A stretch of 44,160 bases of DNA from Bacteroidales bacterium (lineage in GTDB: Bacteria; Bacteroidota; Bacteroidia; Bacteroidales; UBA932). The notes under the pieces were generated by a model. It had not been told where the DNA came from, searched no databases, and was given only the letters and a program-made list of their open reading frames with translations. Shown here piece by piece: positions 2,943 to 38,212 of the stretch. Within the stretch, counting starts at the first letter, position 1. Each line of letters starts with the position of its first letter. Where the stretch lies: assembly GCA_024401855.1 (NCBI GenBank), contig JAKSKH010000018.1:1-44160 (forward strand), given 5' to 3'. A program made the translations under genes and the position numbers.

Positions 2943-5039
2943 ATGGAGGATATTGTACAAAGGGCGTATCAGATAGCGTCGGAGGCGCTGAAGGATGAAT
3001 TTCTGTCGGACGGAACTTCGTTCATAGGGCATCCGGAGGCCGTGGCCCGCATAGTGGAAGATGAAATCGGTCTTCCGGAAAGCTGCATAGCCGCTGTCTA
3101 TCTGCACGAAGCCACAAGAATGCACGAAGAGACGGACATTTCTGAATTTCCTCAGGATGTCAGGGTCATTGTGGAAGGTCTGAACAAGATCTCAGGAATC
3201 AAACCGAAGGACACCCGTCTGGAGGCCGAGAACTACAAGAGGCTCATAGTCCAGTATTCGACCGATCCCAGGGTCGTTGTAATCAAGATTGCCGACCGGT
3301 TGGAGATAATGAGGCGTCTTGACATGTTCTCCAAGACATCCCGCGAGCAGAAACTGCTTGAAACCCTTATGCTGTACATACCGCTCGCGCATCAGCTCGG
3401 GCTCTACAATATCAAGGGGGAGCTTGAGAATATCTACTTCCGCTATTCCGAGCCCGAACAGTACAGGCTCATCACCAACAAGCTCAAGGCCACGGAAAGG
3501 GACAGGGAGCAACTGATGCAGGAGTTCATCGAGCCCCTGAAGAAGAAACTCACAGATGAGGGCATACGGTACAAACTGAAGATACGCACCAAGGCGGCAT
3601 ACTCCATATTCAGGAAGATGCAGGTCCAGAAGGTGCCGTTCGAAGGTGTGTATGACGTTTTTGCAATACGTTTCATAATTGACTGCGACCCCGATCCCGT
3701 CATAGAGAAGGATTTGTGCTGGAAGGTGTATTCATACGTCACGGAAGAGTATGAACCCGACACAAAACGGCTTCGCGACTGGCTCACTAACCCCAAGTCC
3801 AACGGGTACGAGTCGTTGCACATAACCGTGAAGAACAAGCGTGGAAGCTCTCTGGAAGTGCAGATCCGCACGAAGCGGATGGATGACGAGGCGGAGAACG
3901 GCGCTGCCGCGCACTGGGCATACAAGGGAATCAGACATGAACAGACCCTTGACAAATGGCTTACATCTGTCCGGTACAATCTCGAGCATCCGGCCGACTT
4001 GAAACCGGAAGACATGCCCCTCCCTCCGTCGAGGGAAATATTCGTATTCACCCCTACAGGAGAACTGAAGATACTTCCCACAGGCTCTTCCGTTCTGGAT
4101 TTTGCCTTCCATATCCATTCCGGTCTCGGATGCAGGTGCACCGGAGGCAAGGTGAACGGAAAGGTGGTTCCCATCAAGGAGAAACTTGTCACCGGAGATG
4201 TGGTGGAGATAATCACCGGAAAGAACCAGCGCCCGGCGCAGGACTGGCTGGGATGGGTCGTGACCTCAAAGGCCCGCAGCAAGATAAGGCTGGAACTTGA
4301 TTCAGATGAACGCAAGGCCGCTGCGGACGGCAGGGAGATACTCAAGCGCAGGCTGAAGAACTGGAAACTCGAACTCTCCGACGCCATGATGGTGGAACTG
4401 ATGAAGAAGATGAACTGCTCATCAGTCGTTGCCTTTCTGGCATCCATCGGAAGGGATGAATTCGATGTGAATGATGTAAAGGCCTTCATCCTTGATGCTG
4501 AGGCCCGGCACGAGGCTTCCGTAAAGGCGGCTTCAGAAATTGAAGGGTCCAGGAAAACATACACGGTGTCTTCTTCCGGCGGAGACGACATACTGGTCAT
4601 CAACGCCAGGGGAGTGAAAGGCCTGGACTACAGGATGGCGAAATGCTGCAATCCGGTCTGTGGGGACGATGTTTTCGGCTTCGTGACGCGCACGGAGGGT
4701 ATCAAGATTCACAGAATGTCCTGTCCCAATGCGGCCAGACTTATGGAAAAGTATCCGTATCGTATCCAGAAGGTCATATGGCAGCAGAATGAGGGAACCG
4801 GGAATTTCCAGTGCACCCTTGCCATCACTGCCGAACTGGAGCATTCCGTTCTGGCTTCAGTGATGGATGTCATAGGACAGTTCAAGGCTTCCATACGTTC
4901 CTTCAACGTGAATGAAAATACGGGAAACGGCACCTATGAGATTACGGCAAGGCTGCTGGTCCCCTCTACATCCGAACTTGACAAGGTGATATCTCTGGTA
5001 TCGGCTCTCAAGAATGTCATCAAGGTGAAGAGACTGTAA
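2943..5039 (+). CDS. relA: Long RelA/SpoT-family protein with degenerate hydrolase domain
   Basis: A 698-residue protein with the full long-Rel layout: HD domain (about 25-170), synthetase (about 200-335), TGS (about 364-425), a conserved-cysteine helical/zinc-finger region around the KCCNPV motif, and a C-terminal ACT domain. The synthetase half looks competent: Arg215/Lys217 region, Asp238, NGYESLH (Tyr289, His293) and EVQIRT (Glu305). The hydrolase half does not. The metal motif HD is HE (55-56), the catalytic Glu-Asp pair that should follow is Arg59-Met60, and the Asn of the DRLHNMR motif is Ile122. Family knowledge assigns these residues to Mn-dependent ppGpp hydrolysis, so I infer a mono-functional, RelA-like synthetase. 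It sits between mltG and uvrB, 13 bases before the latter. Confidence 0.92.
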
Positions 5040-28184: not shown

Positions 28185-29057
28185 TCACTGGCGTGACAGG
28201 AAGCATTCGATAGTATTTTCCATCAGCATTGTGATGGTCATTGGTCCTACACCTCCGGGAACGGGGGTGATGAAGGATGCGATTCCGGCGGCGCTGTCAA
28301 AGTCCACGTCACCTACCAGTCTGGAACCTTCGGTTCCGTCCTCCCTGATTGTCGGGATTCTGTTGATGCCGACGTCAATCACCACTGCGCCCGGTTTTAT
28401 CATATCGGCCCCTATCATGTTGGGTTTTCCGACGGCGGCAACGAGAATGTCCGCCTCCCTGCATGTCTGTGCAAGATCCCTGGTTCGTGAGTGGGCGATA
28501 GTAACCGTGGCGTTCCTGTCCAGAAGCAGCTTGGCCACGGGTTTTCCCACAATGTTGCTCCTGCCCACCACGACAGCCTTCTTTCCGGATATCTCAATAC
28601 CGGTTGACTCTATCATCTTGATGATTCCCTTGGGAGTGCATGGAATTATGCATTTCCTGCCGAGCCACAGCTTTGCAACGTTTCCGGGATGGAAACCGTC
28701 CACATCCTTTTCAATGCAGATGGAATCAATCACCTTCTCTTCATCTATATGGCGGGGGAGTGGCAGCTGGACAAGTATTCCGTCGGTGTTTTCGTCCCTG
28801 TTGAGATTGTCTATGGTTTCAAGCAGTTTCCGTTCCTCCACATCCTCCGGCAGTTCAACCAGGACGCTGTCCATCCCGACGAAGGACGCGGCGTTGATCT
28901 TTCCCCTCACGTATGACCTGCTTGCAGGATTGTCGCCGACAATTATGACAGCAAGACGCGGCTTGCGTCCGTATTCGTTTTCAAGATTGATGATTCTCTC
29001 CTTCATTTCTTCCTTGAGTGAGAGGGAGAGTGCTTTTCCGTCTATTATTGTTCCCAT
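28185..29057 (-). CDS. folD: Methylene-THF dehydrogenase / methenyl-THF cyclohydrolase
   Basis: Bifunctional NADP enzyme producing 10-formyl-THF for purine synthesis. The 290-residue protein has the catalytic tyrosine-lysine region ([12 protein letters not shown]), [22 protein letters not shown], the dinucleotide motif [13 protein letters not shown], and the C-terminal [11 protein letters not shown]. The ATG at 29057 is chosen; it follows the phosphatase stop after one base, and the 13 earlier codons lie inside that gene. It is the last gene of the signalling operon, although its partners in metabolism (purN, purH) are on the opposite strand just beyond. Confidence 0.95.
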
Positions 29058-29058
29058 G

Positions 29059-29844
29059 TTATTCAAGATAGCGCTTTTGCATAATGTCCATATCATCGTC
29101 GCTGAGGCACAGCGGGCCTGAGAGATAATTCGCCATTGAGCCCCACTTCCTGTCTATTTCGTCGAGAGCGTCAGCGAAGTAGTCGCAATTCACGCTGATG
29201 AATGTGCGCATTGCCGCCTTCTCCTCCGGGCTTGACACCCTGTCTATATACAGATCCAGATCCTTTCTGTAGTACTCCCCGGAGATGGCGTAGTCCTTCA
29301 TTATGGTATCCCTGTCGGCTCCCAGCGCCGCCAGAACGAAGGCGGCTGCCAGACCTGTTCTGTCCTTGCCCTGGGAACAGTGCCAGTAAACCGCTCCGTC
29401 TGCGGTTCCTACTATGTTCTGGAGGAATCCGGCATACTGAATCTGCGTGAATTCATTCGTGACCATAGTAGTGTACATCTTTCTGGCCACTTCCTGTGTG
29501 CTTTTCAATGATGCATGCTCAACAAGCCATCCGCCCAGATCCCTGTATGCTCCGTGTGGAAGCGCCAGCTTCTCCTCGTGCATGGTCTCTTCGTTGAATG
29601 CGGGCATCCAGAAACGCCTGGCATCCGGAATTTCCCTGTCAGGCATCATGCGGACTTCAGTTCCGGTCCTGAAGTCGAAAATCTTTTTCAGTTTGAACTT
29701 GTCCCGCAGCAGGAGAACATCATCATCGGAGATGCCGTTCAATGACCCTCCACGCAAAAGCAGGTCGTGCTTCACAACACGACCGCCGGGGAGAGTGTAC
29801 CCTCCCAGTTCCCTTGCATTCGGGATGCTGTCCAGAATGAACAC
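29059..29844 (-). CDS. Tyrosine-protein-phosphatase-like protein (Y_phosphatase3 type)
   Basis: A 261-residue protein with the CX5R phosphatase signature [10 protein letters not shown] (about 155-164) and the N-terminal substrate-loop features [10 protein letters not shown] and LLLRGGSL typical of the bacterial Y_phosphatase3 family. Members act on phosphotyrosine, phosphoserine/threonine or phosphoinositides; the substrate here is unknown. The start is GTG at 29844, sharing one base with the STAS stop (TAGTG); no ATG fits. Its place behind a STAS gene in a partner-switch operon suggests a signalling role, but that is inference. Confidence 0.82.
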
Positions 29845-30146
29845 TAGAGAATCCTGATGATATTTGAGAATCCTGTGATGTCGAAGATTTCCTTCACCTG
29901 AGGCTTCATGTTGGACATTACCATTGAACCTCCTTTGGAAGAAACGCTCTTCTGGAGCATAAGGAATATTCTCAAGCCCTGGCTGGATGTATAATCCATA
30001 TCGGTGCAGTCAAGTTCTATGTCAGGATTGGCCTCTTCGAAAAGAGGGGCGATGTCCTGCTGGAATTTGTCCGCATTTGTAGTATCAAGCCTTCCGACAA
30101 GTGTTACAATGGTCTTGTTCTCTGTTTTTGTGATTGTTACGTCCAT
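29844..30146 (-). CDS. STAS-domain anti-anti-sigma-factor-like protein
   Basis: A 100-residue single STAS domain. The conserved block DYTSSQGLRIF (51-61) holds Ser54/Ser55, one of which is the expected phosphorylation site by analogy with SpoIIAA/RsbV. In partner switching the unphosphorylated form binds the RsbW-type kinase and frees its target. Both the kinase (32987) and the PP2C phosphatase (30155) are encoded just upstream, so the three core parts are together. No sigma factor gene is nearby. The start ATG lies 8 bases after the phosphatase stop. Confidence 0.88.
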   Translation of the reverse strand: MDVTITKTENKTIVTLVGRLDTTNADKFQQDIAPLFEEANPDIELDCTDMDYTSSQGLRIFLMLQKSVSSKGGSMVMSNMKPQVKEIFDITGFSNIIRIL

Positions 30147-30154
30147 AATAGATA

Positions 30155-32041
30155 TTATTTGTATTTTATTGTCATGATTGTGATATCGTCATTCTGTTCA
30201 TTACCGTCAGTGAATTTCTTCACTTCGTCATACAGATCGTGGCAGGCCGTGCTGGAATCAGTGTCTTCCGGAAGACTGTTCACCCAGGCGAGAAGCCTCT
30301 CTTCCCCGAATTGTGTGAAGTCCGTCCTTTCGGCTTCCGTTATTCCGTCAGTATAGAGCAGCAGTTTGTCTCCCTTGCTGATAAGGCAGCGCTGAAGCTC
30401 GAATTTGAAATCGTTTATCAGACCCACGGCAAGATTCGGTTTCACATCAAGGAATTTCCCGTTAAGGACAACGGGATTGTGCCCTGCGTTGCAGTAGCTG
30501 AGCTCCCCTGTGGAAAGATCAAGCCGTCCTACGAAGAGTGTTACGAACATGCCGCTGTCGTTCTCGTCGCTCAGTGCATAGTTCAGCCTGCTTACAATCT
30601 TGTCCGGCTCCACATCCATATTGGCCACAAATCTGAAGAATGCACGGGTTATGGCCATTATGAGAGATGCCGGAACGCCTTTTCCGGATACGTCCCCCAC
30701 TGTGAAATACAGGATGTGCTTGTCGTATATGAAGAAGTCATACAAGTCTCCTCCAACCTGTTTGGCCGGGCGCAGAATGGCGTGCAGCTCTATGTTTTCG
30801 GAGTTGGGGAATTTCTTCGAAAGCATTGCCATCTGTATCTTGCTGGCAATGTTGAGCTCGCTCTCAAGCCTCTCCTTTTCCTGGGTGGTGTTCTTGAGGT
30901 TGTGGATATATTCCCTTATGGACTTCTGCATATGGTCGAAGGAATCCTTGAGCTGTCCTATCTCGTCTTCTGATTTTATTTCCGGCAGGGCAGTATTGAA
31001 GTTTCCTCCGGCTATGCTTATGGCGGACTCAGAGAACTCTGTCAGGGGTTGGGTCATTTTCCGTATTACAGAATAGCAGATGAGGAACAGCAGCGCAAGG
31101 AAAAAGATTCCCACTATAGTCAGTATTGTCTGCATCCTGATAGCCCTGAACAGTATGTCGAAGTATGAGCAGGATATGAACATTGACCATTTGTTGGACA
31201 ATGAGCCGTATACCCTGAAATATTTCTTTCCCTCCCTGCGGACCGTAACAATCCCGTCATTGCCGTCCATCATGTCCCTGGCCATGGCGTAGATGTCCTT
31301 GTTCCCGCTTTCTATTGCGGTCGAGAAAATGGTTCTTCCCATGAGGGCGTTATCCTTTCCGAAGGATACGAACTTCCCGCTTCTGCTCACCAGATTCACA
31401 TAGGAATTCGGGTACGGCTTGATTGACTCCAGAAGTTCGGTTATTCGTTTGAGGGAGACATCGGCGGTGATGATTGCGTAAATCTGTCCTTCATCATCCT
31501 TCATGGGGTAGCTGTAGGTTGTCATCATGTAATCACCGCCGCCCTCGTCAAAATAAGGCTCGCTCCAGCAGGGCTCCCCAAGAAGGAAGGGAATCTGATA
31601 CCAGTCCATAAAGAAGTAGTCGTACTTCTGGTTGCCGAGCTGCTTGTCTTCTATGTTACCCGTCTCCTCGTTTCTGAAGGAGTAGGGGGAGTAATAGTAT
31701 TTTCCTTCAAAGTGGTAGGGCTTGAAAGCGACGGCGCTTCCGACGATGCCCGGAATGTCGGCCAGCTTGCGGGTGACCTCGTACATGTAGTCGGGGTCCT
31801 CCCTGTTTTCATCCACCAGCCATGAGGCGCACTTCACGTCTTCCTCCACTGCGGTGAATACAGACTGAATCTGGTATATTGTACTGTGCAGCAGATTGCG
31901 GGCCGATTGCTGCGCCTCATTCTCGATGATCCTGTAGGAGAAAAGTGATACAATCCCCAGCATCAGCATGATCAGAACCGATGTGATGAGAAGGATGTTG
32001 AGACTGAGTCTCTTTGAGAAAGAGTTCTTTATTCTGTTCAT
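30155..32041 (-). CDS. Membrane sensor PP2C phosphatase (Cache-like, HAMP, SpoIIE)
   Basis: A 628-residue RsbU/SpoIIE-type serine phosphatase. There is a membrane helix at about 13-35, an extracytoplasmic sensor region of about 260 residues resembling dCache domains (FMDWYQIP, WSEPYFDEGGGDYMMTTYS, DVSLKRI), a second helix at about 302-325, HAMP (about 328-380), a short coiled coil, and PP2C from about 405. Metal-binding aspartates are present in GGDLYDFF, GDVSGKGVP, YTDGITEA and NDDITIM. It should dephosphorylate the STAS protein encoded next when the sensor is triggered. It overlaps the upstream solute-binding-protein gene by 4 bases, hinting that the two products work together at the envelope. 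Confidence 0.9.
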   Translation of the reverse strand: MNRIKNSFSKRLSLNILLITSVLIMLMLGIVSLFSYRIIENEAQQSARNLLHSTIYQIQSVFTAVEEDVKCASWLVDENREDPDYMYEVTRKLADIPGIVGSAVAFKPYHFEGKYYYSPYSFRNEETGNIEDKQLGNQKYDYFFMDWYQIPFLLGEPCWSEPYFDEGGGDYMMTTYSYPMKDDEGQIYAIITADVSLKRITELLESIKPYPNSYVNLVSRSGKFVSFGKDNALMGRTIFSTAIESGNKDIYAMARDMMDGNDGIVTVRREGKKYFRVYGSLSNKWSMFISCSYFDILFRAIRMQTILTIVGIFFLALLFLICYSVIRKMTQPLTEFSESAISIAGGNFNTALPEIKSEDEIGQLKDSFDHMQKSIREYIHNLKNTTQEKERLESELNIASKIQMAMLSKKFPNSENIELHAILRPAKQVGGDLYDFFIYDKHILYFTVGDVSGKGVPASLIMAITRAFFRFVANMDVEPDKIVSRLNYALSDENDSGMFVTLFVGRLDLSTGELSYCNAGHNPVVLNGKFLDVKPNLAVGLINDFKFELQRCLISKGDKLLLYTDGITEAERTDFTQFGEERLLAWVNSLPEDTDSSTACHDLYDEVKKFTDGNEQNDDITIMTIKYK

Positions 32042-32985
32042 CTGATTATCTCGTCAAAGTCTATCTTCCGTGTAGTGTATCCTGTGTTGATGAGCGCTTG
32101 GTTCATTTCTTCAAATATTTTCCTGTCAACGGGAGCGTAGTCGGCTTTTCCCGTAGCGGGGTTGTCCTGCAGGTGGAGGTATTCCTCAAGCATCAGTTTC
32201 TGATGCGTCCTGTCGGATACCACATTCGCTTCCTTTACATAGCGCATGGAGATGTCAACCGCTTCTTCGGGATGCTGCCTTGCATAATCCCATCCCTTCT
32301 TGCTGGCCCTGACAAATTTTTCCACGGTTTCACGGTTTCCGTCATAGTAGTCCTCCCTCACGTACAGACCGTCCTCCGGACAGTCGTATCCGTATTCGGA
32401 GAATTTGAGTACGTGATCGTCCTCTATGTCTCCCATCGCCATCCTGATAGCGATGTATTCGCTGTAATTGTAGCACAGAATGGCATCCACCGCACCGAAA
32501 ACGAACATGTTTATTCCTTGTATGAAGGGAATCCAGTTAATGTGTATTCCCTTGTAGGCTTCGAGTATGTCGCAGAATTCCGAGAATCCCACTTTCCACC
32601 TTCCTATCCTAAGCCCGTCCAGATCTTCAGGGCAGGTCAGAGGGTTGTGCCCTATGCACCACAGACCGCTTTTCTGGGTGAGTTGAAAGACGTTGAGGAT
32701 ATTGCACCCGTCCGCTCTGGCAATCGCCGCCTGGAGCAGTTGCATTCCCACTATCTGAGCGTTTCCGTTGAACAGCTGGTCACAAACGCTCTCGGATGAA
32801 TTGGCCCCCATGTGCTTGATTGTGACATCAAGCCCCTCCTGCGCGTAGAATCCCTTTTCCAAAGCCAGGTAATAACCGGCGAACTGTGACTGAGGAGTCC
32901 ACTGCGGCACGAAGGTGACCTTGGTCTGAGCAGGCATGCACAGGGACAGAAGAACCGCTGCTGTTATGGTAAGGAGTTTTTTCAC
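32038..32985 (-). CDS. THI5/NMT1-like solute-binding protein without a transporter
   Basis: A 315-residue exported binding protein. Signal peptide MKKLLTITAAVLLSL, then a periplasmic-binding fold of the NMT1/SsuA type (VTFVPQWTPQSQFAGYYLALEKGFYAQEGLDV, bound-ligand loop DLDGLRIG). Such proteins usually deliver pyrimidine, thiamine-precursor or sulfonate-like ligands to an ABC importer, but no permease or ATPase gene is near. I choose GTG at 32985, one base after the RsbW-like stop, because it gives a clean signal peptide; an ATG at 33012 inside the previous gene is the alternative. It overlaps the sensor phosphatase gene, so it may present a ligand to that sensor. Confidence 0.82.
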   Translation of the reverse strand: MKKLLTITAAVLLSLCMPAQTKVTFVPQWTPQSQFAGYYLALEKGFYAQEGLDVTIKHMGANSSESVCDQLFNGNAQIVGMQLLQAAIARADGCNILNVFQLTQKSGLWCIGHNPLTCPEDLDGLRIGRWKVGFSEFCDILEAYKGIHINWIPFIQGINMFVFGAVDAILCYNYSEYIAIRMAMGDIEDDHVLKFSEYGYDCPEDGLYVREDYYDGNRETVEKFVRASKKGWDYARQHPEEAVDISMRYVKEANVVSDRTHQKLMLEEYLHLQDNPATGKADYAPVDRKIFEEMNQALINTGYTTRKIDFDEIIR

Positions 32986-32986
32986 T

Positions 32987-33379
32987 TTACTGGATTTTTT
33001 TGCACATTTCAAATACGTTGCAGTCGTTCTCGAAGTGATAGTTGAGGCTGTCCATCATCTGCTTGCAGATGAAAATCCCGAGACCGCCGACCTGGCGCAT
33101 CTCGATGGGGGCGTTGATGTCCGGATCGGGCTTCGCCAGAGGATCGAATTCGATTCCCCCGTCCTTGAAACAGATGTGAAGCATACCGTCAACTATGGCA
33201 ACGGTGACTTCAACCCATTTGCTCCCCGAGTAGCAGAGGATATTCTCTTCCACCTCTTCCACGCAGAGCCGGATCTTGAACTGCAGATCTTCGGGAAGTG
33301 AACTGACTTCAGCTGTGTTCATCACACTTTCGATGATTTCGGCATTCCGCCCTTCAATTGGATCAAATCTTTTATTCAT
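32987..33379 (-). CDS. RsbW-like ATP-binding kinase (anti-sigma-factor type)
   Basis: A 130-residue GHKL ATPase domain. The N-box is CVEEVEENIL, the G1 box is KDGGIEFDP and the G2 box is GGLGIFICKQMMD. There is no histidine-kinase dimerisation domain, so it is a stand-alone serine kinase of the RsbW/SpoIIAB kind, expected to phosphorylate the STAS protein and to bind an unknown target. ATGs at 33382 and 33379 are equally possible. It overlaps the HD-kinase gene by 8-11 bases. Confidence 0.87.
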   Translation of the reverse strand: MNKRFDPIEGRNAEIIESVMNTAEVSSLPEDLQFKIRLCVEEVEENILCYSGSKWVEVTVAIVDGMLHICFKDGGIEFDPLAKPDPDINAPIEMRQVGGLGIFICKQMMDSLNYHFENDCNVFEMCKKIQ

Positions 33380-34787
33380 CATTCAATAGTTTTGCTTTAA
33401 CGAATTCCATCATGGCCTTTGTTGTGAGCCCCTTGCTTTCAAAATAAATTATATAGAGAGCGGCGAAAGGCGCCACCATGGTGTCAACCTGTTCTTCGGT
33501 GTACTTTCCTTCAAAGTATTCGTGGGAGAACGTTTTCCAGACCCTGCGCATCTGCTCCGAAGACAGGTGGTATACGTCCAGCAGCTGTTCCTCGTTCTTG
33601 AGGCACAGACACAGGAAATACATCATTCCAAGGTCGAAAAGCGGATTGCCGTATCCGAATCCTGCAAGGTCTATCCAGTACAACTTTCCGTCGGACATGA
33701 GCGCATTGCCTATGTGGAGGTCTCCGTGCACGCAATTGTCCGTGGAAGGAACCGACCTTATGAACCTGACCACTTCCGATTTCTGTTCTTCATTGAGAAA
33801 GCCGGATTCGCTGACGGCCTTCAGGAATCTCTCCTCCGCAGGACGGAAACTTCCCCTGGCACATGTCTTCGAGTGAAGTTCCCTGCACATTGCGGCAAAC
33901 ATGGAGGAATACTCCTCAAGTCTGTCCGGTTCTTCCGAAATGGCTCTCGCAAATGATTTCTTGTTCCTGATCCGCTCGAATTCAATGCCTGTTCTCTTTC
34001 CGTCCGTCACCATTCTGAGGGCATGTGGAATCAGGAGACCGAGCTCCTCAATCTGTCCGGCCCGGTCAAACTCAAGTTCCGCCTCAGTCGAAGGGACAAA
34101 GTCGGAATACAGCTTGAGCATCCGCTTCCCGTCTTTGTGGAAATATGATTCGGCAGTATAACCTTCTCCGCTTCTTTCATATTCACCCATGTCAACGCAT
34201 TCAGGGGAGGGACGTCCGAAGACGTGCTCCACGGCGTTCAGGAACTCGGCATACGCCATCGTCCCTTCAAGCTCCGACAGGGAATCGGCAAGACCCCTGT
34301 AATGCCATTCGTGGTCAGTCCTGCCTCCCGGCGCATGGAAGAGGTCCCAGAGTCTGTTCCCCTTTTTGTCGTAGTCTCTTGCAATGGCCCTCATGTTCGA
34401 CAGCTTGTCGCCCATGGCAACTATCTTCGCTTCCCGCGGCGCGGAGGCCAGCCTGTCTATGGCCGCCTGCTTGCGTGCGCGCCAGGATGTCGATTCGTTC
34501 TCCCCGGGAAGAGGCTTGTCCGTCTCGGCATCCACAAGGGACGCCACTCTGTCTCCGAATTCCCTTCTGATGTCGTCCAGAGTGACATCGGTGTCCTCCA
34601 CCGTGTCGTGCAGGGCTGTGGCCGCAAGTATTACCGGGTCGTTAGTTATGGTGGCTGCAATCTCCATCGCTTCGAACACGTGAATCACGTAAGGGAAACC
34701 CTTGCCCCTGCGTTCGGTGTTTGCATGGGCATCGACAGCGAACTTGACCGCTTTGTCAACAAGGGATGTGTCCAGATATTTGTTCAT
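33372..34787 (-). CDS. HD (ppGpp-hydrolase-like) domain fused to APH-type kinase
   Basis: A 471-residue fusion. Residues 1-190 are an HD domain like that of SpoT/Mesh1, with all hydrolase residues: His36, His60-Asp61, Glu64-Asp65, and Asp127 with Asn131 in GDKLSNMR. Residues about 205-471 are an aminoglycoside-phosphotransferase-like kinase, close to the TIGR02172 paralogous family. It has a lysine in MLKLY (near 225), the catalytic loop VHGDLHIGN (Asp356, Asn361) and metal-binding Asp373 in WIDLAGFG. So one chain probably removes pyrophosphate from an alarmone and phosphorylates a small molecule or protein. It overlaps the alarmone synthetase gene by 4 bases (ATGA). The kinase substrate is unknown. 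Confidence 0.86.
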   Translation of the reverse strand: MNKYLDTSLVDKAVKFAVDAHANTERRGKGFPYVIHVFEAMEIAATITNDPVILAATALHDTVEDTDVTLDDIRREFGDRVASLVDAETDKPLPGENESTSWRARKQAAIDRLASAPREAKIVAMGDKLSNMRAIARDYDKKGNRLWDLFHAPGGRTDHEWHYRGLADSLSELEGTMAYAEFLNAVEHVFGRPSPECVDMGEYERSGEGYTAESYFHKDGKRMLKLYSDFVPSTEAELEFDRAGQIEELGLLIPHALRMVTDGKRTGIEFERIRNKKSFARAISEEPDRLEEYSSMFAAMCRELHSKTCARGSFRPAEERFLKAVSESGFLNEEQKSEVVRFIRSVPSTDNCVHGDLHIGNALMSDGKLYWIDLAGFGYGNPLFDLGMMYFLCLCLKNEEQLLDVYHLSSEQMRRVWKTFSHEYFEGKYTEEQVDTMVAPFAALYIIYFESKGLTTKAMMEFVKAKLLNDE

Positions 34788-35890
34788 TGTTGCATGAATG
34801 ACAGTTGCTGCGCCGTTTCCAGAATGCGTTCCGCCCTGCTCTTGTTATAATCGTGGGAACCTCCAAGAATGTCGAACATGTGTTCGAGCATCGGGACTCC
34901 GCCGCCTTTTTTCAGAATGAACACCACGCACAGGTCCTGAATGGCCACCGTCGATGCGATGATGTCAAGGTCTGTGTTGCCTATCTGGTAGACAGCCAGC
35001 TCGTATGCGTAGTCGCTGTATTTCTTGATGAAGTGGTCTACGTCTCCGAGTGTCTCGAAATGGAAGTCCTTGAGAATCTTCAGGTAGGGCATGCTGCTCG
35101 TTTCGTGGATCTCCGCCTGGTTTATCGCGGCTATCTTTCTGCTGAGTTTGTCGAAAGGCTTCAGCTTCAGGTAACTGGTGAAGGAGTCTCCGTTCAGGGG
35201 GACCTCGTCGAACCTGCCGCTGCTTACGAGGTTCTGCACCTTCCTGCGGTAGTCGTTGATGTTTGTCCTGATGAGGCTGAACTGCTCGTCGGCGAGCTCC
35301 AGCATACCTGCGAGGCGGTTGAGGTTCCTCAAATGTTCGGGCGGAACCTCGACTCCGCTTTTGTATCCTATGTCGTGATACATTGTGGCCCATACGTGCT
35401 GAAGCGCGGTACGCATCTGTATCTCGAATCTGAATTCGTTTATTTCCGGGTGCTCGGGATCATGGTACACGGATTTGGGAATCCTGCAGATGTAATGCAG
35501 GGAGTTGTAGCCGAAACTGTCAAGTTCGTGCTGCTTCCTCTTGTCAACGCTGTTTTTCCAGTCAATATTGAAAATCCTGTCCACCAGGGCGGAAACCTTG
35601 TCCACCTCGTCGGAGTAGAACGTGATTATCCTGGCTCCCAGAATGTCCGTGAGGTCCGAAAGGAAGGAATATTTGTTTCCCTTCAGGTCCAGCTTGCCGG
35701 CAAGGCTCTTCTCCTCCTTGATTCTCGACTCTATAGCGTTGATGTAAATCTGATTTTCCTCGATGCTGCGTTTCAGGACATCATGGACAATTTCCTGCAT
35801 CTTTCTGAAGACGGGAAGATTCTCACGATACTCTTCGAGTATCATTGTGGAATGAAGGTCCAAACCGTATTTTTCCAGATCCTCTGCCAT
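34784..35890 (-). CDS. Small alarmone synthetase-like protein with C-terminal extension
   Basis: A 368-residue protein with a RelA/SpoT synthetase domain at about 45-180 and no HD, TGS or ACT domain. Motifs: SRIKEEKSLAGKL (Arg56, Lys58), TDILGARII (Asp82), FGYNSLHY (Tyr128, His132), FRFEIQMRT (Glu156) and HVWATMYHDIGYK. All positions expected for pyrophosphate transfer are present. The extra 185 C-terminal residues look helical and are not recognised. It could make (p)ppGpp or a relative, or, like toxic SAS proteins, modify tRNA. The next gene encodes an HD hydrolase-like domain, the pairing seen in some toxSAS-antitoxin loci. It is the first gene of the operon. Confidence 0.85.
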   Translation of the reverse strand: MAEDLEKYGLDLHSTMILEEYRENLPVFRKMQEIVHDVLKRSIEENQIYINAIESRIKEEKSLAGKLDLKGNKYSFLSDLTDILGARIITFYSDEVDKVSALVDRIFNIDWKNSVDKRKQHELDSFGYNSLHYICRIPKSVYHDPEHPEINEFRFEIQMRTALQHVWATMYHDIGYKSGVEVPPEHLRNLNRLAGMLELADEQFSLIRTNINDYRRKVQNLVSSGRFDEVPLNGDSFTSYLKLKPFDKLSRKIAAINQAEIHETSSMPYLKILKDFHFETLGDVDHFIKKYSDYAYELAVYQIGNTDLDIIASTVAIQDLCVVFILKKGGGVPMLEHMFDILGGSHDYNKSRAERILETAQQLSFMQQ

Positions 35891-35898
35891 AATTCGTA

Positions 35899-35906
35899 CA
35901 AAGATA
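35899..35906 (-). promoter_or_regulatory. -7 promoter element for the alarmone/partner-switch operon
   Basis: On the minus strand TATCTTTG matches TAnnTTTG, 8 bases before the ATG at 35890. The mRNA would be nearly leaderless. Confidence 0.55.
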
Positions 35907-35956: not shown

Positions 35957-38212
35957 ATGAATGCTGAAATCAATCTTGTGACGGAGCTTGCGATAATCCT
36001 TATCGCCGCGGGAGTGTTCACTTTGCTGTCAAAGGCCCTGAAGCAGCCCCTTATACTCGGATATATAGTCGCCGGTTTTCTTGTAGGTCCCAAGCTGGGG
36101 CTTTTCCCCCAGTTCAGCGCCGAATCCATCCACGAATGGTCGGAGATAGGCATAATCTTCCTGCTTTTCGGTCTCGGCCTCGAGTTCAGCTTCAAGAAAC
36201 TCATCAGGATAGGCAGCAGCGCATTTATCACTTCCGGTGTCAAATGCGTAGGTATGTTCGCGATAGGAATGCTGACAGGTTCCATCATGGGCTGGACTCC
36301 GATGGAGTCCCTTTTTCTCGGGGGAATGCTCGGAATGAGCTCCACCACCATCATCATCAAGGCTTATGAGGATATGGGTTTGAAGGACAAGCCGTATTCG
36401 ACGCTCATATTCGGCTCCCTTGTGTTCGAGGACCTTATAGCCGTCCTGCTGCTGGTCCTGCTCTCCACCATAGCCGTTACCGGAAAGTTCGAAGGCGGAA
36501 AAATGCTGTTTGCGATAGGCAAGCTTGTATTTTTCATCATACTCTGCTTCCTCATAGGAATTTACGTCATACCTCTCTTCCTCAAGAAGGCAAAGAAATA
36601 CCTCAGTGACGAGATTCTTATGCTTGTGGGCATAGGTCTTTGTTTTTCAATGGTGGTCATTGCAAACCTCGTGGGCTTCAGTTCGGCTCTCGGCGCCTTC
36701 GTGATGGGTTCCATACTTGCGGAAACTCTTGAAGGGGAGAAAATTCTGAAACTGACGGGCAACATCAAGGATCTTTTCGGCGCAATATTCTTCGTGTCGG
36801 TAGGTATGATGGTCGACCCGGCCGTGATCGCGCAGTACTGGCTGCCCATTATCATAATCACCATTATGACCATGCTGGGCATACTGCTGTTCAGTACAAT
36901 CGGTGTGCTGCTGGCGGGACAGGGCCTTGACACGGCTGTGCATGCCGGATTCTCTCTGGCCCAGCTTGGAGAGTTCGCCTTCATCATCGCCGGTCTCGGA
37001 TGCAGCCTTGACGTTATGAGGGATTTCATTTATCCCGTTATCATTGCAGTGTCTGTAATTACAACATTTACAACACCTTACATGATAAAGCTCGGGGACC
37101 CCGCATCGGCATGGCTCTACAGGGTGCTTCCTGCGAAAGTCATTGCCAACCTTAATCCTAAGAGGAAGAATTTCACGGTGGATTCCAAGGCCGAGCAGAA
37201 TGTATGGAAGAAACTGCTCAAGTCCTATTTCCTCAATCTTGTACTCTTTTCCGTCATAGTCATCGCCGTCATTATGGGGGACAGGATGTTCCTGAAGGAT
37301 TTCCTTCCCGGGATTATGCCCAGCATAAGTTCCGGTATAGTCAACGCCATCGATTGTCTGATAACAATGGGTGTATCGCTGCCCTTCCTTTATCTTCTCG
37401 GGAACTCGAATACGGAAATGAAGCATTACGGCGAGCTGCTGGTCAAGAAAAACCCCTGGAACAGGTGGCTCCTGACCTTCCTCATCGCCCTCAGGGAGGC
37501 TGTGGCCGTCAATTTCATAGCATATATAATAATCAGTCATGTCAGGCTCTCGGCGGTCATCATTATTCTCTTCATTGTATTCGTGGTGGCGTTTATCTGG
37601 CTTACCAGAAGGTCTATGGGCAAATTCGCCAACCTGCGTGAGACTTTCCTGGAGAACCTGAACGAGAAGGAGATGGAAGAGCGCAGGGCTTCGCCTGTTA
37701 CCTATCAGGTGAATGACATCTTTGCAAGATACGATATCAAGATCTGCAGGATTCAGATTACCCAGAATTTCGCATTTATCGGCAAGACCTTGAGGGAAAT
37801 GCCGTTCCGCAGGACTACAGGTGTGAATATCATCAAGATAGTCAGGGGAACGCATTCCGTGACAATTCCATCCGGAGCCGAACCGGTTTACCCCGGTGAC
37901 GTGCTTCTTGCCGTGGGGACGGAGGAACAGCTTGTAAAGTTCCGAGAAGTCATAGACGAGAATATGCCCGCGATGGTTCCGCAGGAGGAACCTGAATTCG
38001 GTATAGATTCCATGGAAATCGGGGAGGACAATGCGATTTTCCTGGGCAAGTCTCTGCGTGACATCAATATGCGCGCTTCCGGATGCATGGTGGTGAGCGT
38101 GATGCGGGATGGTGAGATTATAGCCAACCCCCACGCCGAATTCACTTTCAGGGAGCATGATATAATCTGGATAGCAGGGGAGAAGGATTCCGTTTCCTGG
38201 TACTGCAAGTGA
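35957..38212 (+). CDS. CPA2-family cation/proton antiporter (KefB-like) with TrkA-C domains
   Basis: A 751-residue membrane protein. The first 390 residues form a Na+/H+-exchanger-type bundle of about a dozen helices (QPLILGYIVAGFLVGP, FLLFGLGLEFS, GMSSTTIIIKA, LAQLGEFAFIIAG). A second hydrophobic block of about four helices follows (about 415-555), which ordinary KefB lacks. The C-terminus has two TrkA-C (RCK-C) modules, about 590-665 and 680-750; the nucleotide-binding TrkA-N domain is absent. The role is probably K+ or Na+/H+ exchange gated by a ligand on the TrkA-C domains. In some bacteria RCK-C modules bind cyclic dinucleotides; whether that holds here is unknown. Confidence 0.87.
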   Translation: MNAEINLVTELAIILIAAGVFTLLSKALKQPLILGYIVAGFLVGPKLGLFPQFSAESIHEWSEIGIIFLLFGLGLEFSFKKLIRIGSSAFITSGVKCVGMFAIGMLTGSIMGWTPMESLFLGGMLGMSSTTIIIKAYEDMGLKDKPYSTLIFGSLVFEDLIAVLLLVLLSTIAVTGKFEGGKMLFAIGKLVFFIILCFLIGIYVIPLFLKKAKKYLSDEILMLVGIGLCFSMVVIANLVGFSSALGAFVMGSILAETLEGEKILKLTGNIKDLFGAIFFVSVGMMVDPAVIAQYWLPIIIITIMTMLGILLFSTIGVLLAGQGLDTAVHAGFSLAQLGEFAFIIAGLGCSLDVMRDFIYPVIIAVSVITTFTTPYMIKLGDPASAWLYRVLPAKVIANLNPKRKNFTVDSKAEQNVWKKLLKSYFLNLVLFSVIVIAVIMGDRMFLKDFLPGIMPSISSGIVNAIDCLITMGVSLPFLYLLGNSNTEMKHYGELLVKKNPWNRWLLTFLIALREAVAVNFIAYIIISHVRLSAVIIILFIVFVVAFIWLTRRSMGKFANLRETFLENLNEKEMEERRASPVTYQVNDIFARYDIKICRIQITQNFAFIGKTLREMPFRRTTGVNIIKIVRGTHSVTIPSGAEPVYPGDVLLAVGTEEQLVKFREVIDENMPAMVPQEEPEFGIDSMEIGEDNAIFLGKSLRDINMRASGCMVVSVMRDGEIIANPHAEFTFREHDIIWIAGEKDSVSWYCK

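Follow-up and report, generated by a model that had tools for sequence, protein, structure and literature searches.

A partner switch linked to a small alarmone synthetase in Bacteroidales: a possible envelope-signalled alarmone circuit

Alarmone control in bacteria is usually described as a response sensed at the ribosome or through starvation, or as the transcriptional control of small alarmone synthetase (SAS) genes. Here we describe an operon that joins an SAS and a putative alarmone hydrolase of the HD type to a full set of partner-switch genes, in a 44,160-nucleotide stretch of a Bacteroidales genome (assembly GCA_024401855.1, contig JAKSKH010000018.1; the whole stretch is hereafter called the window). 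The linkage of the SAS and HD genes with partner-switch genes is not a matter of chance. On balance, we are inclined to read the operon as an envelope-signalled alarmone circuit, in which the partner switch controls a local alarmone cycle and the STAS protein is the component most likely to contact the SAS. A bolder version, which we put forward tentatively, holds that the switch acts directly on the SAS, whose C-terminal domain would be a docking domain of a new kind. Bacteria of herbivore guts, from Bacteroidota, Fibrobacterota and (according to the title of one record) Verrucomicrobiota, would then share a stringent response that is triggered by a ligand, is independent of the ribosome and comes with its own hydrolase.

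The operon and its two halves

The open reading frame (ORF) map of the window places eight co-directional ORFs on the minus strand (28185-35890), each overlapping the next or separated from it by a short gap; coordinates and Pfam calls agree with the eight genes and domains named in an earlier note on this DNA. The first gene encodes the SAS (34784..35890, 368 aa), which has an SAS fold and passes the curated Pfam cut-off for the RelA_SpoT synthetase domain (6.4e-16). The protein consists of a RelQ/RelP-like synthetase half (residues ~1-215) and a conserved C-terminal domain (~222-368, about 147 residues); for the latter, the searches made gave no match to a known fold. The active-site residues were aligned with 2be3, and R56, K58, S62, K66, D82, R87, Y128, S130, H132, E156, Q158 and R160 are invariant across 30 sequences including that of the window; we take the motifs (RxK, S/K, D, R, ExQxR and GYxSxH) to have the same roles as in RelQ/RelP. 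The product is presumably (p)ppGpp, and may alternatively be a nucleotide like those of FaRel or Tas1. Three further RelA/SpoT matches occur in the genome, in long open frames of 705, 729 and 638 aa (window 3585-3929, and G000 contigs C23 and C1).

The second gene (33372..34787; HD_4 3.1e-16, APH 2.9e-12, Pfam) encodes an HD domain fused to a TIGR02172-type phosphotransferase, referred to below as HD-APH. Its HD half (~1-190) matches alarmone hydrolase-related entries, namely 7qoc (3e-22), MESH1 5vxa (2.7e-13) and 4yf1, and its metal-site motif (H36, H60, D61, E64 and D65) is kept in 119/119 sequences. The phosphotransferase half (~198-424) scores 238.7 bits against TIGR02172, over the cut-off of 228.2.

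The partner switch comprises an RsbW-like serine kinase (32987..33382, 131 aa; HATPase_c_2 4.5e-15, Pfam), a membrane sensor phosphatase (30155..32041, 628 aa) with dCache_1, HAMP and SpoIIE domains (SpoIIE 9.1e-45, Pfam), and a STAS protein (29844..30146, 100 aa; STAS 2.6e-19, Pfam; TIGR00377 over cut-off). Ser54 and Ser55 in the phosphosite motif are kept in 101/101 SAS-linked STAS proteins, and we take the phosphorylated serine to be the one known from RsbV/SpoIIAA. The N-box residues Glu42 and Asn46 of RsbW, together with Asp73, are kept in 100/100. To judge by sequence, both the partner switch and the synthetase/HD pair proposed earlier thus appear complete, with all parts found and their active-site and motif residues intact.

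Between the kinase and phosphatase genes stands that of an NMT1/THI5-like binding protein (32038..32985, 315 aa; PF09084 6e-29), with a signal peptide apparent by eye. A tyrosine-phosphatase-like gene (29059..29844; Y_phosphatase3, PF13350 4.4e-53), which we regard as an optional member, and folD (28185..29057, Pfam), a downstream neighbour, complete the row. Consecutive genes overlap by 4 bases (SAS/HD-APH), 11 bases (HD-APH/RsbW, the largest overlap in the operon), 4 bases (THI5/SpoIIE) and 1 base (STAS/phosphatase), and are separated by 1 base (RsbW-THI5), 8 bases (SpoIIE-STAS) and 1 base (phosphatase-FolD). The gaps next to THI5 and FolD depend on starts chosen by eye, namely GTG 32985, just past the RsbW stop (mechanical ORF start TTG 33012), and ATG 29057, the likely FolD start (mechanical start 29096). 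The earlier statement that no overlap or gap exceeds 8 bases therefore holds for the gaps and for the overlaps of 1, 4 and 4 bases, but not for that of 11.

Linkage of the switch and the synthetase among relatives

Two sets of loci were mapped, one anchored on HD-APH and one on the SAS. With the whole HD-APH protein as query (E <= 1e-30, HD-only and APH-only matches counting), 159 genomes gave matches out of 398 from the family; 60 regions were mapped, three of them from a gene-order search, and 54 of these carry a usable SAS. The SAS-anchored set comprises the best 80 of at least 576 confirmed relatives, from named genomes. It consists mostly of Bacteroidales metagenome-assembled genomes, many of them from herbivore guts, and by record title includes 15 Fibrobacter and one Akkermansia.

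On the same strand and within 8 kb of the SAS, these 80 loci contain HD (65), STAS (53), RsbW (50), SpoIIE (46), APH (28), phosphatase (14), THI5 (7) and DAGK (5) genes; FolD and PurD were found in none, so that folD, previously counted as an operon partner, is a local neighbour rather than a conserved member. At least one partner-switch gene is present in 56/80 and all three in 40/80. In 43 loci the flanks extend for 8 kb or more in both directions, and partner-switch genes occur in 30 of these; when split by title by hand, 28 of the 33 non-Fibrobacter and 2 of the 10 Fibrobacter loci have them.

The same association was seen in a sample of 119 genomes of the family. The SAS (E <= 1e-60) occurs in 18 of them, RsbW-family proteins (E <= 1e-6) in 62, with 93 matches, and STAS in 85, often in ORFs of ~570 residues, as in transporters. 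When coordinates were compared by hand, RsbW lay within 10 kb of the SAS in 16/18 genomes, STAS in 16/18 and at least one of the two in 17/18. In the remaining genome, G297, the SAS lies on a contig of 3,359 bases that carries only the SAS and HD. In G279 the partner switch is divergent. As a control, 20 loci of long RelA/SpoT homologues (RSH; 19 loci of 18.0 kb and one of 16.3 kb) were mapped, and none contained an operon component beyond the RSH's own HD. The SAS is rare in the phylum at large (3/395).

The gene set is thus found together across many Bacteroidales, in differing orders and with differing fusions. HD and APH form one protein in some loci, as the earlier note described for the window, but are separate genes in many relatives; a cytidylate-kinase-like gene stands between SAS and HD in L102 (7649-8290), L186 and L189, with PF13189 checked in L102 only. 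RsbW may stand alone, form one protein with SpoIIE (41/126 tree rows) or follow a DAGK/YegS-like domain in a fusion (15/126). In one of the latter loci, L068 (7228-8532), the GGDGT-like motif reads GGSGT, and L149, L168, L198 and L203 have stand-alone DAGK genes by STAS or SAS. When nine arrangement labels were placed on a quick tree of 126 SAS rows, 31 changes were required (the minimum being 8 and the mean for shuffled labels 79). This total leans high, as 21 of the changes belong to the label for loci with no switch, 16/30 of whose rows have short flanks. The label for STAS upstream of the SAS needs 11 changes. Arrangements were thus inherited within clades and rebuilt several times, with the association being kept.

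The Fibrobacter loci present a different picture. The 15 Fibrobacter-titled SAS form one group on the tree (SH-aLRT 99), and switch genes accompany four of them, L160, L181, L184 and L192, the SpoIIE of L192 being a fragment at a contig end. In these four loci the SAS has a median identity of 53-55% to Bacteroidales SAS, compared with 56% among Bacteroidales themselves, whereas identity is 30-35% for STAS (vs 42%), 18-26% for SpoIIE (vs 42%) and 30% for the one RsbW (vs 42%). A close SAS beside divergent switch proteins suggests that the Fibrobacter switch was separately acquired; faster divergence of the switch may be an alternative.

Partner-switch genes also occur as a general cassette apart from the SAS. 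A set of 20 other switch loci, of which two are second switches in genomes with the SAS, reveals such a cassette of THI5, SpoIIE, RsbW and STAS, RsbW being often fused to SpoIIE, and a SpoIIE tree requires at least four changes between SAS-linked and unlinked copies. Judged by eye, SAS-less cassettes have among their neighbours what look like amino-acid ABC transporter genes, and very large ORFs resembling nonribosomal peptide synthetases (NRPS). In L234 and L249 a SpoIIE-RsbW fusion and STAS lie directly beside such an NRPS-like ORF (at least 2,300 aa, by eye), which hints at another output of the switch. Where THI5 is present it stands directly before SpoIIE, in 21/21 cases of the SAS set (some loci present twice) and in 14/14 cases of the 20 other loci. 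This constant adjacency fits a binding protein that presents a ligand to the sensor phosphatase, and the tie between the two proposed earlier is, by gene order, consistent.

A possible circuit and its alternatives

In the circuit that we favour, a ligand outside the inner membrane would be sensed by the dCache sensor, probably together with the THI5-like protein, and would activate SpoIIE. The balance between the SpoIIE phosphatase and the RsbW kinase would then set the phosphorylation of STAS. Dephosphorylated STAS would most likely bind the SAS, with the C-terminal domain of the SAS as a possible docking site, and turn alarmone synthesis on; the HD domain would remove the alarmone, RsbW and HD together would reset the system, and the TIGR02172 kinase domain could be a second output or a regulator. 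The direction of the signal, the choice of STAS rather than RsbW as the contact of the SAS, and the C-terminal domain as the docking site are what we infer from the genes. Three points favour STAS: it is the more frequent neighbour of the SAS in the SAS-anchored set, RsbW is in many cases joined to other domains, and there is precedent. Specifically, of the 53 SAS-anchored loci that have STAS, 25 place it immediately before the SAS, compared with 4/53 for RsbW ORFs. STAS is directly downstream in 0/80 of the SAS-anchored loci; in L254 it stands downstream of the SAS, with one base between.

The precedent comes from diguanylate cyclases. BgrR, HsbD and SiaD are under partner-switch control (PMC8457831; for HsbD also PMC5085249), and SiaC binds SiaD directly and activates it, binding being prevented when SiaB phosphorylates SiaC (PMC8457831). 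The operon resembles SiaABCD of P. aeruginosa, HsbA-HsbD and BgrV-BgrR in that a partner-switch protein would govern a nucleotide second-messenger synthetase, here proposed from genes alone. It differs from SiaABCD in that the synthetase is of the RelA/SpoT type with its own hydrolase, whereas SiaD is a diguanylate cyclase; in that the partner is a classical STAS protein, whereas SiaC is a DUF1987 protein; and in its additional binding protein and phosphotransferase. Membership of the SiaABCD family was rejected: SiaA is the best NCBIfam similarity of the SpoIIE protein, at 75.7 bits far under the cut-off of 700, and the eight operon proteins have no GGDEF match.

Compared with RelQ and RelP (SAS1 and SAS2), the SAS of the window adds its C-terminal domain, a linked HD hydrolase and the partner switch. 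The kinase, STAS antagonist and SpoIIE-family phosphatase, with their motifs kept, resemble the SigB/SpoIIAB-type switches (RsbW, RsbV and RsbU), from which the operon differs by its alarmone genes. RSH members of Bacteroidia and Fibrobacteres were tabulated by Atkinson et al. 2011, and STAS and SpoIIE are absent from the main text of that paper (PMC3153485). An alarmone synthetase under a partner switch was not found described in the titles and abstract openings of the open-licence literature, subscription papers lying largely outside the search. We propose that the system, if the circuit is right, is a case of partner-switched second-messenger synthesis with a new class of messenger. An envelope sensor acting via STAS phosphorylation would then join two signalling worlds, the partner switches of Bacteroidales would gain a definite non-sigma output, a large SAS subfamily would gain a function, and there would be an undescribed route from an outside signal to the control of bacterial growth. 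The Fibrobacter SAS-HD loci with their divergent switch would allow the same question to be put to another, partly independent system.

A number of observations weigh against this circuit. The earlier pairing of alarmone and switch genes is kept in many loci, but the two also occur apart. The SAS is missing from 45 of the 62 genomes with RsbW matches, which means that the cassette has other uses, and from 6/60 of the HD-anchored regions (L070, L072, L109, L120, L121 and L123), of which L121 reads HD-APH-SpoIIE-STAS. Conversely, 11/15 Fibrobacter-titled loci have no switch gene within 8 kb of the SAS, so that SAS-HD stands there without a linked cassette, and 5/33 non-Fibrobacter loci with wide flanks lack a linked switch (L135, L145, L153, L154 and L196), L145 doing so although its near-identical relative L103 has one. 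As for the contact, the commonest direct neighbour of the SAS is HD (57/80), not STAS; only 7/54 HD-anchored loci have STAS immediately before the SAS, and in the window it lies five genes away. Finally, the assembly, at 85% completeness, may lack another RsbW/STAS set, given that the second SpoIIE gene of the window's genome (L253:269-2203, G000 C38) ends 269 bases from a contig edge. The kinase fusion, the phage-borne relatives and the sigma genes taken up below add to these points.

The alternative that survives best, although we think it unlikely, is that the target of the switch is the TIGR02172-type kinase or some other enzyme of the operon, and that SAS-HD is a co-regulated companion bound by neither STAS nor RsbW. 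It is favoured by L237 (1473-2687; G261, a genome without the SAS), where THI5 and a SpoIIE-RsbW fusion are followed by a protein that combines STAS with a TIGR02172-like kinase (119.9 bits, short of the 228.2 cut-off). The kinase is, moreover, fused to HD in the window, and is present in 49/54 HD-anchored loci, a set chosen with HD-APH as query. Against it, the kinase is found in fewer of the SAS-anchored loci (28/80) than are STAS and HD, and STAS directly adjoins the SAS in nearly half of the loci that have it.

Somewhat less probable still is that SAS-HD is a toxSAS-type toxin-antitoxin or phage-defence pair, with HD as the neutralising hydrolase, inside a signalling operon. Some described toxSAS/hydrolase pairs are likewise adjacent genes, and the frequent SAS-HD adjacency and the Fibrobacter loci with SAS-HD alone speak for such a pair. 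Distant stand-alone relatives of the SAS, at 32-37% identity among the matches listed, are borne by phages and plasmids, which fits a defence or toxin origin. PHROG 9640, a phage family of unknown function, matches SAS residues 16-298 at 202.6 bits, the best of three PHROG matches, and the SAS also has a weak PADLOC match, PDC-S33 (60.8 bits), in common with phage and plasmid relatives. PHROG 9640 differs from the system of the window in that the annotations of the short stretches flanking two phage-borne relatives include neither an HD gene nor a partner-switch gene. One distant relative (L256:3989-5062) lies by terminase and portal genes in a Bacteroides finegoldii plasmid record, and another (L258:2959-3969) in a filamentous Vibrio phage. 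The SAS also shares with CapRel a RelA/SpoT synthetase domain followed by a C-terminal regulatory part, and with FaRel2/ATfaRel2 a partner gene; it differs from them in lower sequence and fold similarity and in its place in a signalling operon. Its synthetase half, to which the comparison was confined without the C-terminal part, is closer in sequence and fold to RelQ/RelP than to CapRel or FaRel2, and for that half the toxSAS-like alternative raised in the earlier note is weakened.

The classical clients of RsbW and SpoIIAB are sigma factors. The window's genome has one RsbW-family match and one STAS match, both in the operon, and no SigB/SigF-size sigma-70 ORF was found at its 85% completeness, sigma-54 not being searched for; a non-sigma output, as suggested earlier, is therefore plausible. 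Nine sigma-70 region 2 matches are present, one of them in an ORF of 337 aa and the others in ORFs that range from 159 to 207 aa. In Fibrobacter, a gene for an extracytoplasmic-function (ECF) sigma factor (L184:8777-9361; PF04542, PF08281) is divergently next to the HD of HD-SAS, and another (L156:12231-12830) is downstream of the SAS, near HD-SAS, so that there may be a sigma link in these loci; the operon maps sought operon families only, with no systematic sigma-gene search in the relatives' loci. An LTXXQ-type gene follows the ECF sigma gene in L184. That the switch regulates a sigma or anti-sigma factor elsewhere and shares no more than a regulon with SAS-HD nevertheless seems improbable to us, even with these sigma genes and with cassettes that exist without the SAS, because a linkage kept under varied gene order is more than co-regulation needs.

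Sequences upstream of the operon

Just upstream of the SAS ATG lies TATCTTTG (35899..35906, minus strand), a possible Bacteroidetes-type -7 box. It is the only minus-strand match to TAnnTTTG between 16688 and 41919. The promoter call is weak, because the window contains 16 matches to this motif against 13.5 expected and because no full -33/-7 pair was found upstream of the SAS, no -33 TTTG standing at the standard spacing from TATCTTTG. Beyond it, a CPA2-type cation/proton antiporter gene (35957-38212) is divergent from the operon; in L149 and L172 a CPA2-type antiporter gene stands in line, upstream of phosphatase-SAS-HD-APH.

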